This document shows, one piece after another, positions 1 through 11,840 of a stretch of 64,000 bases of DNA. The DNA is taken from contig NZ_JAMXQS010000003.1 of assembly GCF_024053505.1 (NCBI RefSeq), positions 186,001 through 250,000 on the forward strand, given 5' to 3'. The stretch comes from Mesorhizobium liriopis (GTDB lineage: Bacteria; Pseudomonadota; Alphaproteobacteria; Rhizobiales; Rhizobiaceae). The translations under genes and the position numbers were made by a program. Within the stretch, counting starts at the first letter, position 1. Each line of letters opens with the position of its first letter. The notes below the pieces were generated by a model. That model was not told the DNA's origin and ran no database searches. It saw only the letters and a program-made list of their open reading frames with translations.

Positions 1-1657
1 CGTCGCTTCCATACAGCGCCTCCTTGAACGGCGCGGCGCCGACACGGCGATAGGCGTCGAGGAACTTTTCAGACTTGTCGAGACGCAACCCGAGATAGGT
101 GTCGACCACCGTCTCGACGGCGTCGGTGATCTCTTCGGGCGCGAAGCCGCGGCCGACGATCTCGCCGATCGAGGTCACCTCGTCGCCCGAGCCGCCGAGC
201 GTGATCTGGTAAAGCTCGGTGCCTTTCTTTTCGACGCCCAGAATGCCGATATGACCGACATGGTGGTGGCCGCAGGCATTGATGCAGCCGGAGATCTTGA
301 GCTTCAACTCGCCAATCTCCTGCTGCCGAACGGGGTCTGCGAAGCGGTCGGAGATTTCCTGCGCGACGGGAATCGAGCGGGCATTGGCCAGCGCGCAGTA
401 GTCGAGGCCGGGACAGGCGATGATGTCGGTGATCAGACCGGCATTGGCGGTATGCAACTGGCCTTCCACGAGGCGGTCATAGACGGCCTTCAGATCGGCA
501 CGCGCGACATGGGGCAGGATCAGGTTCTGCTCGTGGGACACGCGGATCTCGTCGAAGGCATAGCGCTCGGCGATGTCGGCGACGAGATTCATCTGGGCGT
601 CCGACGCGTCACCGGGCGCTTCGCCGATGCCCTTCAGCGAGATGGTCACGCAGGCATAGTCGGGATGCTTGTGGGTGATGACGTTCTGATCGACCCAGGT
701 GCCGAAGTCGCGGCTGTCGAGACGCGCGAGCTTTATGGCCTCGTCGCCTTCGGGACGAGCGGGCAAGTCGGGCAGCGCGAAATAGCGGTCGATGGCCTGG
801 ATGTCGCTTTGCGGCAGCTTCAGCTCACCATCCTTGATCGCCAGCCATTCCTGCTCGATCTGCGCGGAAAGCTCCGCCGTACCCGTCTCGTGGACGAGGA
901 TCTTGATGCGGGCCTTGTATTTGTTGTCGCGGCGGCCGTGCAGGTTGTACACGCGCATGATCGCGGTGGTGTAGGAGAGCAGGTGCTCTTCAGGCAGGAA
1001 GTCCTTGATCTTCTTGGCGATCATCGGCGTGCGCCCCTGACCGCCGCCGACATAAACGGCAAAGCCCAGCTCGCCCGCTTCGTTCTTCTTGAGATGCAGG
1101 CCGATATCGTGGACCTGGATCGCCGCGCGGTCGCGCTCCGCACCCGTCACCGCGATCTTGAACTTGCGCGGCAGGTAGGAAAATTCCGGGTGCACCGAGG
1201 ACCACTGGCGCAGGATCTCGGCGTAAGGGCGCGGATCGGCGACCTCATCGGCCGCGGCACCGGCGAAGTGGTCTGCCGTCACATTGCGGATGCAGTTGCC
1301 GCTCGTCTGAATGGCATGCATCTCGACGGAAGCCAGATCGGCCAGGCAGGCCGGCATGTCGGCGAGTGCGGGCCAGTTGTACTGGATGTTCTGGCGCGTG
1401 GTGAAGTGGCCGTAGCCCTTGTCATATTTGCGCGCGATATGGGCGAGCATCCGCAACTGGCGCGAGGACAGTGTGCCATAGGGGATGGCGACACGCAGCA
1501 TATAGGCGTGAAGCTGGAGATAGACGCCGTTCATCAGGCGCAGCGGCTTGAACTGGTCCTCGGTCAGCTCGCCCGAAAGACGGCGTTGCACCTGATCGGA
1601 AAACTCGGCCACGCGGGCATTCACGAAGGCCTGATCGAATTCATCGTAGCGATACAT
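1..1657 (-). CDS. cysI: Nitrite/sulfite reductase (assimilatory sulfite reductase hemoprotein), 3' end cut by window
   Basis: Siroheme/[4Fe-4S] enzyme that reduces sulfite to sulfide (or nitrite to ammonia) in the cytoplasm. About 552 codons are visible and the last few residues lie beyond the left edge. The protein starts MYRYDEFDQ and contains the ferredoxin-like repeat region (GYGHFTTRQNIQYNWP). It also has the two cluster/siroheme cysteine motifs near the C terminus, CPGLDYC and CINACGHHH. It is the last visible gene of a leftward operon behind cysG and a DUF2849 gene, with a 13-base gap to the latter. The siroheme synthase upstream supplies its cofactor. Sulfite rather than nitrite is preferred because this gene order is usual for cysteine biosynthesis in rhizobia; the sequence alone does not settle the substrate. 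A long open frame on the opposite strand is a codon-bias shadow. Confidence 0.93.
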   Translation of the reverse strand, partial: MYRYDEFDQAFVNARVAEFSDQVQRRLSGELTEDQFKPLRLMNGVYLQLHAYMLRVAIPYGTLSSRQLRMLAHIARKYDKGYGHFTTRQNIQYNWPALADMPACLADLASVEMHAIQTSGNCIRNVTADHFAGAAADEVADPRPYAEILRQWSSVHPEFSYLPRKFKIAVTGAERDRAAIQVHDIGLHLKKNEAGELGFAVYVGGGQGRTPMIAKKIKDFLPEEHLLSYTTAIMRVYNLHGRRDNKYKARIKILVHETGTAELSAQIEQEWLAIKDGELKLPQSDIQAIDRYFALPDLPARPEGDEAIKLARLDSRDFGTWVDQNVITHKHPDYACVTISLKGIGEAPGDASDAQMNLVADIAERYAFDEIRVSHEQNLILPHVARADLKAVYDRLVEGQLHTANAGLITDIIACPGLDYCALANARSIPVAQEISDRFADPVRQQEIGELKLKISGCINACGHHHVGHIGILGVEKKGTELYQITLGGSGDEVTSIGEIVGRGFAPEEITDAVETVVDTYLGLRLDKSEKFLDAYRRVGAAPFKEALYGSD

Positions 1658-6537: not shown

Positions 6538-7164
6538 TCAACTATGAGCGAAGATGTCCTGCTCTTCCCAGCCCATCAGGTCGAGCTTCGCGCGTGTGGG
6601 GAGGAAGCGGAAACAGGCCTCTGCCACTTCCACGCGCTCCTCACGCGCGAGACGTCCGTCGAGAACTTCGCGCAGGCGGTGAAGATAAAGGACGTCGGAC
6701 GCCGCATAGTCGAGCTGGTCCTGCGACAGCGTTTCCGCCCCCCAGTCCGAGCTCTGCTGCGCCTTGGAGATGCCGACGCCGATCAGTTCGCCACACAGCT
6801 CCTTCAGCCCATGCCGGTCGGTATAGGTGCGCACCAGCTTGGAGGCGATCTTCGAGCAGAAGACGGGCTCGGCCCAGATGCCGAAGGCATGGGCCAGAAC
6901 GGCGATGTCGAAGCGGCCGAAATGGAAGAGCTTGGTGATCGCCGGATCGGCCAACAGCTTCTCGATGTTCGGGGCCGAGGTCTGACCTTTGAGTATCTGC
7001 ACCACATCGGCCGTGCCGTCGCCCGGCGAAAGCTGGACGACGCAGAGCCGGTCGCGATGGGGATTCAGGCCCAGCGTCTCGGTGTCGATGGCGACCGCGT
7101 CCACCTGATAATGGTCGAGGTTCGGCAGGTCGCCCTGATGGAAGCGGATTTCAGGACGGCTCAC
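6538..7164 (-). CDS. rnd: Ribonuclease D (3'-5' DEDD exonuclease, short form)
   Basis: 208-residue DEDD-family exonuclease. Exo I motif AIDTETLGL, Exo II segment LFHFGRFDIAVLAHAFG and Exo III YAASD (the YxxxD form) are intact. There is no room for HRDC domains, so it is the short alphaproteobacterial type, acting on tRNA or other RNA 3' ends. I chose a GTG start at 7164 because it overlaps the stop of the upstream M20 gene as GTGA (7161-7164) and the protein then begins VSRPEIRFHQGDLP. A longer in-frame extension inside the M20 gene is spurious. Confidence 0.88.
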   Translation of the reverse strand: MSRPEIRFHQGDLPNLDHYQVDAVAIDTETLGLNPHRDRLCVVQLSPGDGTADVVQILKGQTSAPNIEKLLADPAITKLFHFGRFDIAVLAHAFGIWAEPVFCSKIASKLVRTYTDRHGLKELCGELIGVGISKAQQSSDWGAETLSQDQLDYAASDVLYLHRLREVLDGRLAREERVEVAEACFRFLPTRAKLDLMGWEEQDIFAHS

Positions 7165-8555
7165 GCGGATGCTCCCGACACGGCGTCCAGAATGCGCGCC
7201 CAGGAGCGCGTGCCCTTGTGGAAGCTCTGGAGGTCGTATTTCTCGTTGGGCGAGTGGATGCGGTCGTCCGACAGCGCGAAGCCGACCAACAGCGATTCCA
7301 TGCCGAGATAGGTCTGGAAATCGCCGACGATCGGGATCGAGCCGCCCATGGCGATGGTCACCGCCGTTTTCGGCCACTCGTCGGACAGCGCGCCCTGCGC
7401 TTTCACGAGGAAGGGCGAGTCGTAGGAAAGCTGGATCGCCGGCGAGCCGCCATGCGGGTGGAACTCGACCGAGCAGTCGGCCGGCAACCGGTCGCGGACG
7501 AATTGCTGGAAATTGTCGCGGATGGCGTCCGGGTTTTGTTTGTGAACCAAGCGGAACGAGATCTTGGCGTGTGCCTCGGCCGGGATCACGGTCTTGAAGC
7601 CTGCGCCCGTATAGCCGCCCCACATGCCGTTGATCTCGGCCGTGGGCCGCGCCCAGGTCAGCTCCTGCACGGTCCGGCCCTGTTCGCCTGACGGCACGGA
7701 CAGGCCGATGGGGCCAAGGAAGTCTTCGGCCGTTTCGCCCAGCGCAGTCCAGGACTGCAGGATCTGCGTCGGCGTTTCCTCGACGCCGTCATAGAAATCG
7801 GGGATCGTGACGCGGCCGGTCTCGTCGTGGAGATCGCCCAGGATCTTGGCGAGCACGCGGTTGGGGTTGGCTGCCGCTCCGCCGAACTCGCCCGAATGCA
7901 GGTCACGGTTGGCGGCGCGGATCGTGATCTCCTGCCCCACGAGGCCGCGAAGGCCCACACAGATCGCGGGCGTTTCGCGGTCCCACATGCCGGTGTCGCA
8001 GACCATGGCGAAATCGGCCTTGAGCTCGGCAGCATTGGCTTCGAGGAAGGGTTTCAGCGAGGGCGAACCGGACTCCTCCTCGCCCTCAAACAGAAGCGTG
8101 ATACGCGCGGGCAGGCCGCCATGAACCGCCTTCCAAGCACGGCAGGCTTCCACGAAGAGCATCAGCTGCCCCTTGTCGTCCGACGAGCCACGGCCGGTGA
8201 TGACCTCGTGCCCGCCTTCGATCGTCTTGATCTTCGGGTCGAACGGGTCGTCGTGCCAAAGGCTGAGCGGATCGACGGGCTGCACGTCATAGTGGCCGTA
8301 GAACAGAAGATGCGGCGAACCGGCCGGGCCCTCGTGGTGGGCGACCACCATCGGGTGGCCGGGCGTGTCGCGCACGCTCGCCACGAAGCCGATGGTCTTC
8401 AGGTCTTCCACCAGCCATTCGGCGGCACGGCGGCAATCGGCGGCATGGGCCGGATCGGTGGAGATGGAAGGAATGCGCAGAAGCGAAAAGAGACGGTCGA
8501 GGCTTTGCGGAAGATCGGCGTCGATGCGCTCGAGAACGGAGGCGATGCGGGACAT
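7161..8555 (-). CDS. M20 family metallopeptidase (dipeptidase-like)
   Basis: 464-residue zinc peptidase of the M20/M25/M40 family, probably a cytosolic dipeptidase. The metal and catalytic motifs are clear: FYGHYDVQPVDP, GRGSSDDKGQL and LLFEGEEESGSPSL. A dimerisation (lid) domain lies around residues 190-330. The stop overlaps the RNase D GTG start, so the two are cotranscribed leftwards. The start at 8555 gives MSRIASVLERID, the normal family N terminus. Substrate cannot be read from sequence; related proteins cleave small dipeptides or remove N-acyl groups. Confidence 0.9.
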   Translation of the reverse strand: MSRIASVLERIDADLPQSLDRLFSLLRIPSISTDPAHAADCRRAAEWLVEDLKTIGFVASVRDTPGHPMVVAHHEGPAGSPHLLFYGHYDVQPVDPLSLWHDDPFDPKIKTIEGGHEVITGRGSSDDKGQLMLFVEACRAWKAVHGGLPARITLLFEGEEESGSPSLKPFLEANAAELKADFAMVCDTGMWDRETPAICVGLRGLVGQEITIRAANRDLHSGEFGGAAANPNRVLAKILGDLHDETGRVTIPDFYDGVEETPTQILQSWTALGETAEDFLGPIGLSVPSGEQGRTVQELTWARPTAEINGMWGGYTGAGFKTVIPAEAHAKISFRLVHKQNPDAIRDNFQQFVRDRLPADCSVEFHPHGGSPAIQLSYDSPFLVKAQGALSDEWPKTAVTIAMGGSIPIVGDFQTYLGMESLLVGFALSDDRIHSPNEKYDLQSFHKGTRSWARILDAVSGASA

Positions 8556-8631: not shown

Positions 8632-8780
8632 AAAGAAGCGCCGCCGTGGTGGAGGGGGAACCACGGCGGCTTTACTTCTTGAGGGGCAGCCCGGAGAGGG
8701 GGGATGAGGCTGCCGCCTTTACCCGGTCGAGGCGGGGGACGAGCCTCGTAGTGACCGGATCTCGACGTGTGACCCGCCGA
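8632..8780 (-). ncRNA. Candidate trans-acting small RNA, alpha-r7-like, divergent from polA
   Basis: On the minus strand three consecutive hairpins can be read. The first has arms 8744-8749/8729-8734 plus an outer 8755-8759/8724-8728. The second pairs GGCAGCC (8709-8715) with GGCTGCC (8685-8691). The third is a perfect 11-bp stem (8660-8670 with 8640-8650) followed by GCTTCTTTAT, typical of an intrinsic terminator. All three loops are C/U-rich (for example TCCCCCTCC), complementary to Shine-Dalgarno sequences. A -35-like CTTGAA (8818-8813) and -10-like GATAAC (8792-8787, about 19 bases apart) lie upstream. Both ends are estimates. From memory, the rhizobial alpha-r7 family (Smr7C) also neighbours polA; that link is recalled, not checked. 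Confidence 0.6.
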
Positions 8781-8903
8781 TGGGTGTTATCTGTGCGCCA
8801 CAATCGGGCATTTCAAGGATGCGATTTCGTAACGAAGGCGTGAACACCGGCAAGGGCTCGAACGCCCGTGGACAGGCCCCTGCCCCCGCGCTACGGGTTC
8901 GCC

Positions 8904-11840
8904 ATGAAAAAGGGTGATCACCTCTTCCTCGTCGATGGTTCGGGCTACATCTTCCGCGCCTATCACGGCCTGCCGCCGCTGACGCGCAAGTCCGACGGCT
9001 TGCCCGTGGGCGCCGTTGCGGGCTTCTGCAACATGCTGTGGAAGCTGATGGTTTCCGCGCGCGACACGGAAGTGGGCGTGACACCGTCCCACTTCGCGGT
9101 GATCTTCGACTATTCGTCGAAGACATTCCGCAACGAGCTCTACGACCAGTACAAGGCGAACCGCTCGGCCCCGCCGGAAGACCTCGTGCCGCAGTTCGGC
9201 CTGATCCGTGACGCCACCCGCGCCTTCGAGCTGCCTTGCATCGAGATCGAGGGCTTCGAGGCGGACGACCTGATCGCCACCTATTGCCGGCTTGCGACCG
9301 AAGCGGGTGGCGACACCACGATCATTTCCTCCGACAAGGATCTGATGCAGCTCGTGTCGCCCTCGGTCTCCATGTACGACCCGATGAAGGACCGCGAGAT
9401 CCGCGAGCCGGAAGTGATCGAGAAGTGGGGCGTGCCGCCTGCGAAGATGATCGACCTCCAGGCGCTGACCGGCGATTCCATCGACAATGTGCCGGGCGTG
9501 CCGGGCATCGGGCCCAAAACGGCGGCGCAATTGCTCGAAGAATACGGCGATCTCGACACGCTTCTGGAACGGGCGGGCAAGATCAAGCAGCAGAAGCGGC
9601 GCGAGGTCATCATCGCGAATGCCGACAAGGCGCGGCTCTCGCGTGAGCTGGTGCGCCTGCGCACCGACGTGCCGGTGCCTGAAACGCTGGATGAGCTGGT
9701 GCTCCATCCACTGAACGGGCCGAAGCTGATTTCCTTCCTGAAAGCGATGGAGTTCACCGCGCTCACCCGCCGCGTGGCCGACAAGACGGATACCGATCTG
9801 GCTTCCGTCGGTAAGGCGAAGGTCGAGGTGGAGACCGGCGCGGAAGCGCATGGACCCGATCTGGATACAGGCGAGCCTAGGCCCGCGCCCGACAAGGACA
9901 CGAGCTTTCCCGGCGACCGCGCCGGAAAGGTGGAGGGCAAGACCCCGCAGGATCTGGCCAACAAGCGCATCGAGGAGGCGGCGAACAGCAAGATCGACAC
10001 GAGCGCTTATGTGACGATCCGCGATGCCGACACGCTGAAAGAATGGATCGAGCGCGCGAAGGACATCGGCTATGTCGCCTTCGACACCGAAACCACCTCG
10101 CTCGACCCGATGCAGGCGGAGCTTTGCGGCTTCTCGCTCTGCTCGGAACCGGGAGTCGCGGCCTATGTGCCCCTGATCCATAAATCCGGCACGGGCGACC
10201 TCTTGGGAGGCGGGTTGGCGCCCGACCAGATCGATACGCGCACGGCACTCGACCTGCTCAAGCCGCTGCTCGAAGACCCGTCCGTGCTGAAGATCGCGCA
10301 GAACCTCAAATACGATCTCGTGGTGATGAACCGCTACGGGATCGACGTGCGGCCCTTCGACGACACGATGCTGATCTCCTATGTGCTCGACGCCGGCAAG
10401 GGCGGGCACGGCATGGATGTGCTGGCCGAACGCTGGCTCGGGCACCGCACCATCCAGTTCAAGGATGTGGCGGGCACCGGCAAGGCCAAGACCACCTTCG
10501 ACTATGTGCCGATCGACCGCGCCACCGAATATGCGGCCGAAGACGCCGACGTCACCTTACGCCTGTGGCGCGCGCTGAAACCGCGGCTCGTGGCCGATGG
10601 CGTGGTCGCGGTCTATGAGCGGCTCGAACGGCCGCTGGTGCCGGTGTTGGCCCAGATGGAGCAGCGCGGCATCTCGGTCGATCGCCAGACACTGTCACGC
10701 ATCTCGGGCGAGCTCGCGCAAAAGGCGGCGGCGCTGGAAGACGAGATCTACGAGCTTGCCGGCGAGAAGTTTTCGATCGGCAGTCCCAAGCAGCTCGGCG
10801 ACATTCTGTTCGGGCGCATGATGCTGCCGGGCGGGTCCAAGACCAAGACCGGCCAGTGGTCCACCTCGGTGTTCGTGCTGGAAGAGCTGGCGGCGGAAGG
10901 CCATGAACTGCCGCGCAAGATCGTGGACTGGCGCCAGCTCACCAAGCTGAAATCGACTTATACCGATGCGCTGCCCGAATATATCCACCCCGAAACCAAG
11001 CGCGTGCACACCTCTTTCGCGCTTGCCGCGACCACCACGGGCCGACTGTCCTCGTCGGAGCCCAATCTTCAGAACATCCCGATCCGCACCTCGGAGGGAC
11101 GGCGCATCCGCACGGCCTTCGTGGCGGAGCCCGGCAACAAGCTGATCTCGGCCGATTACAGCCAGATCGAGCTGCGCCTGCTTGCCCACATCGCCGATAT
11201 TCCCGAACTCAAGCACGCGTTCGAGAACGGCTTGGACATTCACGCGGCGACCGCCGCCGAAATGTTCGGGTTGGATGTCGAGAAGGTGCCGACCGATGTG
11301 CGGCGTCAGGCCAAGACCATCAATTTCGGCATCATCTATGGCATCTCCGCCTTCGGGCTCGCGACGCGACTGGGGATTAGCCGCGAGGAAGCGGGTGACT
11401 ACATCAAACGCTATTTCGACCGTTTCCCTGGCATCCGCAACTATATCGAAGGCACCAAGAAGCGGGCGCGCGACAGGCTCTATGTTGAGACGATCTTCGG
11501 ACGCCGCGCCTATTATCCCGAGATCAAGGCGTCGAACCCGCAGACCCGCGCCTTCAACGAGCGCGCGGCGATCAACGCGCCGATCCAGGGCTCGGCCGCC
11601 GACATCATCCGCCGCGCGATGATCCGCATGGATGATGCGCTCAAACAGGAAAAGCTCGGCGCGCGCATGCTGTTGCAGGTGCATGACGAACTGATCTTCG
11701 AGGCACCCGAAAAGGAAGTGGACGAGACGATCCGCATCGTGCGCGCGGTGATGGAGGATGCCGCGATGCCGGCGGTGTCGCTGTCCGTGCCGCTGCAGGT
11801 CGATGCGCGGGCGGCGGATAATTGGGACGAGGCGCACTGA
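8904..11840 (+). CDS. polA: DNA polymerase I
   Basis: 978-residue repair and Okazaki-fragment polymerase. Domains in order: 5'-3' exonuclease (about 1-290, starting MKKGDHLFLVDGSGYIFRAY), a charged linker, 3'-5' exonuclease (about 360-560), and family A polymerase (about 580-978). The proofreading site looks active (DTETT at 394-398, plus YAAEDAD). Polymerase motifs are intact, including DYSQIELRLL (Asp751) and QVHDELIFEAP (Asp928, Glu929). I chose ATG 8904; an in-frame ATG at 8868 adds 12 atypical residues. The gene stands alone, divergent from the small RNA candidate and M20 peptidase and convergent with the small gene ending at 11954. Confidence 0.97.
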   Translation: MKKGDHLFLVDGSGYIFRAYHGLPPLTRKSDGLPVGAVAGFCNMLWKLMVSARDTEVGVTPSHFAVIFDYSSKTFRNELYDQYKANRSAPPEDLVPQFGLIRDATRAFELPCIEIEGFEADDLIATYCRLATEAGGDTTIISSDKDLMQLVSPSVSMYDPMKDREIREPEVIEKWGVPPAKMIDLQALTGDSIDNVPGVPGIGPKTAAQLLEEYGDLDTLLERAGKIKQQKRREVIIANADKARLSRELVRLRTDVPVPETLDELVLHPLNGPKLISFLKAMEFTALTRRVADKTDTDLASVGKAKVEVETGAEAHGPDLDTGEPRPAPDKDTSFPGDRAGKVEGKTPQDLANKRIEEAANSKIDTSAYVTIRDADTLKEWIERAKDIGYVAFDTETTSLDPMQAELCGFSLCSEPGVAAYVPLIHKSGTGDLLGGGLAPDQIDTRTALDLLKPLLEDPSVLKIAQNLKYDLVVMNRYGIDVRPFDDTMLISYVLDAGKGGHGMDVLAERWLGHRTIQFKDVAGTGKAKTTFDYVPIDRATEYAAEDADVTLRLWRALKPRLVADGVVAVYERLERPLVPVLAQMEQRGISVDRQTLSRISGELAQKAAALEDEIYELAGEKFSIGSPKQLGDILFGRMMLPGGSKTKTGQWSTSVFVLEELAAEGHELPRKIVDWRQLTKLKSTYTDALPEYIHPETKRVHTSFALAATTTGRLSSSEPNLQNIPIRTSEGRRIRTAFVAEPGNKLISADYSQIELRLLAHIADIPELKHAFENGLDIHAATAAEMFGLDVEKVPTDVRRQAKTINFGIIYGISAFGLATRLGISREEAGDYIKRYFDRFPGIRNYIEGTKKRARDRLYVETIFGRRAYYPEIKASNPQTRAFNERAAINAPIQGSAADIIRRAMIRMDDALKQEKLGARMLLQVHDELIFEAPEKEVDETIRIVRAVMEDAAMPAVSLSVPLQVDARAADNWDEAH

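Follow-up and report, generated by a model that had tools for sequence, protein, structure and literature searches.

The analysed DNA, a 64,000-nucleotide stretch of the Mesorhizobium liriopis genome (hereafter, the window), carries a gene for the small RNA ar7 on the minus strand next to polA, and there is hardly any doubt about this identification. The best overall explanation of the locus, to which we assign a probability of roughly 0.7, is a trans-acting small RNA that would be driven by its own promoter, end at its third hairpin (SL3) and pair with mRNAs through its loops. The Rfam model RF02342 (ar7) matched positions 8782–8635 over its full length (model positions 1–145 of 145) with 92.2 bits against a gathering threshold of 60 and an E-value of 1.6e-16. 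It was the sole Rfam match in the window at curated thresholds, and five further matches at E-values up to 1 were all sub-threshold. Our own covariance model, R1, gave 120.7 bits at 8785–8632 on the minus strand, the window being one of the 31 rows used to build it. The genome of 4.48 Mb contains a single copy. Judged by sequence, the gene is a fresh member of an already described family of trans-acting small RNAs in rhizobia and their relatives. The first-pass annotation had suggested the alpha-r7 family from its position beside polA, which agrees with these matches, and its interval of 8820–8632 proved slightly too wide, the limits of the Rfam match or of R1 being preferable. The features of the locus are as follows.

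8635–8782, minus strand: ar7 small RNA gene (RF02342 match; 8785–8632 by our own model)
8789–8817, minus strand: putative promoter, −35 CTTGAA at 8817–8812, N17, −10 ACAGAT at 8794–8789 (from conservation; RpoH-like or sigma-70-like, sigma factor inferred)
about 8721–8761, minus strand: SL1, outer stem and inner 3-bp stem, GUCCCCCGCC at 8740–8731, loop core GUCCCCC
about 8685–8717, minus strand: SL2, loop CAUCCCCCCUCUCC at 8706–8693
8640–8670, minus strand: SL3, perfect 11-bp stem (putative terminator stem), loop with CCCCCUCC at 8658–8651
8632–8639, minus strand: U-rich 3' tail GCUUCUUU, directly after SL3 in the sequence
8632–8737, minus strand: predicted processed form of about 105–108 nt, cut within loop 1 (by analogy with S. 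meliloti; 5' end within a few bases)
8904–11840, plus strand: polA, DNA polymerase I (PF00476, PF02739, PF01367, PF01612; ATG at 8904)
7161–8555, minus strand: M20 family peptidase gene (PF01546, PF07687), downstream of ar7 on the same strand

Four ORFs overlap ar7 or its promoter (8664–8287, minus; 8646–8843, plus; 9126–8719, minus; 10445–8787, minus). None of them had a Pfam match, in line with the earlier remark that no protein gene explains the stretch.

The window RNA resembles SmrC7 (= sra03 = SmelC023) of S. meliloti, which we take to be the ar7 of that species (position and structure agree), in its full-length model match, three covarying hairpins and constant loop cores, and further in its divergence from polA, its putative terminator stem and its predicted length. 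SmrC7 is reported to lie between polA and SMc02851 and to give a primary RNA of 148–150 nt, mapped in 2007, with a processing site 42 nt after the start that leaves a stable 106-nt form; its level rises about 13-fold in nodules (PMC2780559). Northern bands of about 140 and 90 nt were described for smrC7, which was equated with sra03 (PMC2573895), and three long hairpins with covariation and a 15-nt constant loop were described for sra03 (PMC2245857). The 29 ar7 relatives presented in PMC3927594 have conserved loops and covarying stems and, A. tumefaciens C58 excepted, adjoin DNA polymerase I. The downstream neighbour reported there for the Rhizobiaceae members is a MarR-type gene, whereas in the window it is the M20 peptidase gene. 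The window also differs from its ar7 relatives in lacking the upstream TTAC-N6-GTAA dyad and in having four extra bases between the outer and inner stems of SL1. By analogy, we infer that the window copy is transcribed as the S. meliloti copy is. The ar7 family and the S. meliloti transcript were already known; the constancy of the loop 1 and loop 2 cores, the kept −35 element and the upstream dyad in relatives are new here.

The three consecutive minus-strand stems seen in the first-pass annotation were recovered on folding. The 189-nt stretch folds at −81.1 kcal/mol compared with −62.0 kcal/mol on average for shuffled sequences (z = −4.43), and none of 200 shuffles was as low. The last stem is, as had been described, a perfect 11-bp stem followed by a U-rich tail; a terminator scan did not call it, the SL3 loop having 9 nt and the scan allowing loops only to 8 nt.

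Compensatory change, which had been proposed as a check on the upstream regions of polA, was abundant, so its absence, named in the first-pass annotation as a refuting outcome, did not occur. Alignment A2, made with MAFFT from the window and 30 RF02342 matches (the best 30 of 130), involved no fitting to the structure; it was itself the source of the structure, and R1 was built from its 31 rows. In A2, 99.6% of the cells were paired and double changes occurred in 18 of 31 pairs (145 cells), values that none of 500 shuffles reached. When partners were slid by 1–3 columns, 27.5–46.7% of the cells were paired (27.5–53.0% over A2 and A4 together), a control that is at a disadvantage because A2 also supplied the structure. 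The number of further pair types in A2 was not above that of the shuffles, 437 of 500 being as high. Alignment A4, comprising 80 rows (79 relatives and the window), was fitted to the model, so its values lean towards the model: 98.3% of the cells were paired, and the double changes in 22 of 31 pairs (228 cells) were reached by none of 500 shuffles. By hairpin, double changes in A2 were found in 7 of 11 pairs of SL2 and in 8 of 11 pairs of SL3. SL2 switches en bloc between two stem sequences in A2, so many covarying cells trace to few events. Judging from these alignments, the three hairpins are maintained by compensatory changes.

All three window loops are C/U-rich. The loop 1 core GUCCCCCG is found in 79 of 80 rows and the loop 2 core CCCCUCUCC in 78, and both are present in the window. 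Within loop 1, GTCCCCCG occurs in 79 of 80 rows and GTCCCCCGCC in 65, the CC after GTCCCCCG being part of the inner stem; CCCCTCTCC of loop 2 occurs in 78 of 80. The window thus shows the constant C-rich loops that characterise the two middle hairpins of ar7. The mean share of the commonest letter over the 80 rows was 0.996 for the loop 1 core, 0.994 for the loop 2 core, 0.878 for paired columns and 0.873 for the loop 3 core. By this measure, the RNA is most constant in the cores of loops 1 and 2, which surpass the stems; loop 3 does not, since 0.873 makes it as variable as the stems. The 80-row alignment separates constant parts (the loop 1 and 2 cores and the promoter −35) from free ones (the stems, the 5' arm and loop 3), and thereby names short segments for mutational change. 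The classical anti-Shine-Dalgarno motif CCUCC occurs in the window only in loop 3 (CCCCCUCC); loop 2 has CUCUCC, and loop 1 (GUCCCCCGCC) has neither. Over the 80 rows, CCUCC is present in loop 3 in 61 and in loop 1 or 2 in none. The earlier statement that each loop is C/U-rich and complementary to ribosome binding sites is consequently correct as to composition; complementarity in the classical sense is found in loop 3, to some extent in loop 2 and not in loop 1.

Rfam also contains families named ar15/AbcR and ar9, which together with ar7 and ar14 had been suggested for the scan. No match to ar15/AbcR was listed in the window at E-values up to 1, and none to ar9 (SmrC9) either at the gathering threshold or at E-values up to 1, so the locus was assigned to neither. 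At the ar7 locus, ar14/NfeR1 (RF02344) scored 31.1 bits against a threshold of 58.8, short of membership. ar14/NfeR1 is like ar7 in its three hairpins, C-rich loops and similar size and is Hfq-independent in S. meliloti, but it is described as having CCUCCUCCC in each loop (PMC10746234), whereas the window loops GUCCCCCGCC, CAUCCCCCCUCUCC and CCCCCUCC all differ and none is CCUCCUCCC. CcsR1 (RF02791), named for its conserved CCUCCUCCC motif, shares C-rich loops with ar7; its match at the locus was weak and sub-threshold (25.2 bits against 65.3). The CcsR RNAs of Rhodobacter are RpoH-dependent. AbcR1 and AbcR2 (ar15) likewise have C-rich anti-Shine-Dalgarno motifs and act on mRNA starts; they differ in silencing transporter and metabolic mRNAs via CUCCUCCC and UUCCCCUC (PMC8844928) and in binding Hfq (PMC2848018, PMC7143759). 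PmaR was rejected as a relative owing to its different, single-loop structure. Bsr7 of Brucella shares its number with ar7, and the text examined draws no link between the two.

In the preferred reading, transcription would start from the conserved CTTGAA-N17-NCANAT promoter and the transcript would end at SL3. The unpaired C-rich loops would pair with G-rich stretches at or near the ribosome binding sites of several mRNAs, and this pairing would block translation without Hfq. Cleavage inside loop 1 would turn that loop into a free 5' end and so yield a second form with a different seed. Pairing with mRNAs through the loops, as in ar14 and ar15, is on this analogy the probable mode of action, with some reserve; a regulatory purpose of the loop 1 cleavage, also by analogy, is a tentative idea that we rather doubt. 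Counted from the assumed start, the loop 1 core of two Ensifer relatives begins at a distance of 39 nt, which should place the mapped S. meliloti cut at 42 nt within loop 1. If 42 nt are counted from the assumed start at 8781–8778 in the window, about 105–108 nt would be left. What speaks against pairing is that the most constant loops, 1 and 2, are not classical anti-Shine-Dalgarno sequences, and loop 3, which is classical, varies like the stems.

Although 79 of 80 related loci (the best 80 of 560) retain ar7 next to polA, no experimentally proven target was found in the open-access literature searched. Two target ideas, one borrowed and one from earlier work, were compared with pairing energies, and neither was supported. 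The first, control of ABC importer mRNAs, was put forward in the first-pass annotation. It was borrowed from other small RNA families, such control being documented for AbcR1/2 and NfeR1 (PMC8844928, PMC7143759, PMC10746234), and is not documented for ar7 in the parts of the literature examined. The loops were paired with 46 binding-protein starts of the same genome (PF00496, 16 of 16 matches; PF13416, 30 of 31), and 30 of its 63 short-chain dehydrogenase starts served for comparison. Shuffled loops had a median as low as the real one at importer starts in 30 of 40 cases for loop 1, 35 of 40 for loop 2 and 14 of 40 for loop 3. For loop 3, pairing energies were lower at importer than at dehydrogenase starts (uncorrected p = 0.014), a difference equalled by 14 of 40 loop 3 shuffles; loops 1 and 2 and the best loop showed no difference between the 46 and 30 starts. 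This comparison is a weak one because start codons were taken from a crude score and accessibility was ignored. Because shuffled loops paired with importer starts just as well as the real ones, which also showed no selectivity, the importers were set aside as targets.

The second idea dates from 2007, when loop 2 of sra03 was noted to be complementary to the leader of the smc03977–smc03976 (zapA) operon; for the full RNA, no significant target is given in the accessible part of the same source (PMC2245857). In 28 leaders from 30 of 40 zapA loci (L204–L233), the real loops did no better than shuffled ones, of which 22, 99 and 100 of 100 were as low for loops 1, 2 and 3, respectively. The zapA operon was accordingly rejected as a target on pairing energies. 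In many of these loci, the intergenic region some 280–520 nt ahead of the zapA match has a GGGG(G)A run and a TTGAC...TAAT pair; the G-run is probably outside the leader because it lies upstream of this conserved, promoter-like pair. The same region in many loci also has a GATTCG site ahead of the start of a small upstream gene.

A pairing scan of the whole window (4738 overlapping stretches) gave, the RNA's own complement aside, the strongest loop 2 sites at +17821 and at the start of ORF 41666–40905. The former is antisense to ORF 17941–17132, which appears GntR-like by eye. The latter, a dehydrogenase ORF on the minus strand, paired with loop 2 at −28.0 kcal/mol, the strongest of 76 start-region pairings; the pairing is not kept, with −4.9 to −20.0 kcal/mol in 8 relatives (E-value 1e-70, 61 genomes). 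This ORF lies directly behind a permease-like ORF.

That no target emerged, together with the near-invariant cores of loops 1 and 2, would fit a constant protein or RNA ligand. ar7 would then act mainly as a sponge or by sequestering a protein, binding through its constant C-rich loops and not silencing mRNAs directly. The reported failure to detect SmrC7 in Hfq co-immunoprecipitation, as given in the available part of PMC2848018, leaves room for another partner. This alternative is nonetheless unlikely, as the sister families ar14 and ar15 silence mRNAs via similar C-rich anti-Shine-Dalgarno motifs (PMC10746234, PMC8844928).

Synteny was examined in the best 80 of 560 polA relatives, all with named records and including Mesorhizobium, Chelativorans, Brucella, Ensifer, Agrobacterium and others; among the matches listed, none shares more than 74% identity with the polA segment of the window. 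With R1 at E < 1e-9, ar7 was found in 79 of these loci, always on the strand opposite polA. Ten weak R1 matches in the polA loci (18.6–26.7 bits), nine of which lay on the same strand as polA, were dropped by this stricter E-value. The distance between ar7 and polA was at most 250 nt in 66 of 80 rows, the window included, with a median of 168 and a maximum of 2715; in the window, ar7 lies 118 nt from the polA start and is directed away from it. The sole polA locus with no ar7 nearby belongs to Oryzicola (L032). Its ar7 (L116, G345:C1:717975–718122) adjoins an M20 gene, and the 3.1-kb locus contains no polA; if contig C1 is the contig of L032, the two are about 90 kb apart. Oryzicola has a second, weak match, which proved to be an ar14 gene. 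An M20 gene is located within 400 bp downstream of ar7 on the same strand in 54 of 79 loci, lies farther away in 11 and was not detected in the remaining 14, 4 of them with downstream sequence shorter than 1.4 kb. Since the Oryzicola ar7 lies away from polA and M20 is not constant, ar7 is tied strictly to neither neighbour.

The frequent same-strand M20 gene, and the fact that in Oryzicola ar7 remains with M20, could suggest that ar7 is a leader or attenuator of the peptidase gene. Such a role is very improbable: in 10 loci whose downstream sequence extends for 1.9 kb or more, ar7 lies upstream of polA with no M20 match; in five Ensifer, Agrobacterium and Rhizobium loci (L102, L104, L107, L108 and L109), M20 is 698–853 bp away; and S. 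meliloti is reported to make discrete short transcripts that have a terminator (PMC2573895, PMC2780559). The Agrobacterium locus L107 also contains an ar35 match (354–483, plus strand; 50.4 bits against a threshold of 45) about 2.5 kb from polA.

The −35/−10-like pair mentioned in the earlier annotation was located about 150 nt upstream of the 3' end and has the form CTTGAA-N17-ACAGAT in the window. CTTGA[AT] occupies the −35 place in 78 of 80 rows, the window included; in 60 of these 78, NCANAT follows at 17-base spacing, and in 39 it reads CCAAAT. Across the rows, GCC-CTTGAA-TCGCCACGTTC...-CCAAAT emerges as the consensus, the spacer being 17 bases long. The spacer itself is conserved (TCGCCACGTTC; 8811–8795 in the window), although contacts with sigma would not by themselves clearly call for this. 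A sigma-70 scan of the window called no promoter at ar7. The pattern CTTGAA-N17-NCANAT resembles the alphaproteobacterial RpoH consensus. For the S. meliloti copy, RpoD and RpoH1/2 are tabulated in a review (PMC7143759) and sigma-70 is described for SmrC7 (PMC2780559); the list in the accessible part of PMC2245857 gives no sigma-70 promoter for sra03. That the hairpins are only terminator-like or chance structures with no RNA gene, as high GC content and the negative sigma-70 scan might suggest, is next to impossible given the family match, promoter conservation and synteny, and is largely refuted by the covariation found here and the transcript mapped in a relative.

A TTAC-N6-GTAA dyad was found between polA and ar7 in 72 of 79 relatives (in L039, for example, at about 2890), and the window has a degenerate form of it near 8818–8840, with half lost. 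The dyad occurred in none of 948 polA coding stretches and in 2 of 4000 shuffled upstream segments, row kinship remaining in both controls; the GC content of the upstream region with the dyad is 0.50 and that of polA 0.63. In six genomes, GTTAC-N5-TGTAAY occurred 1–3 times per genome compared with 1–14 times for the reversed pattern, which is no genome-wide enrichment. The stricter dyad pattern was found at a single place across four genomes, the ar7 site of L039. A role as a regulon operator was rejected, as the dyad lacks genome-wide enrichment in the genomes searched. A more far-reaching proposal, which we regard as quite improbable, is that ar7 could be a heat-shock-sigma-driven, Hfq-independent RNA in two forms, in which the loop 1 cut would free GUCCCCCG as a 5' seed and change the mRNA or protein partners; the TTAC-N6-GTAA dyad would act as a local operator that, in most relatives, ties ar7 expression to DNA polymerase I, a link lost in the lineage of the window.

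To describe the distribution of ar7, RF02342 was searched against 151 sampled genomes of the window's family, which the named polA relatives suggest to be Rhizobiaceae in a broad sense; 125 matched at E-values up to 0.001 and 100 exceeded the cut-off, compared with none of 14 control genomes. R1 matched 24 of 199 genomes of the order. Six of these belong to the window's family, with at least 108 bits; the 18 outside it reached at most 29.2 bits and are taken as chance matches on their scores. Among the genomes listed, eight do not exceed 2.0 Mb, and seven of these had no ar7 match (G005, G044, G072, G076, G090, G092 and G110) and one had a match of 27.1 bits, a pattern that suggests loss of ar7 with genome reduction. 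For Mesorhizobium huakuii 7653R, the accessible part of PMC5596092 states that Smr7C was undiscovered in that strain; in M. huakuii NBRC 15243, ar7 is present (L049:2683–2828, minus strand) with 120.2 bits.
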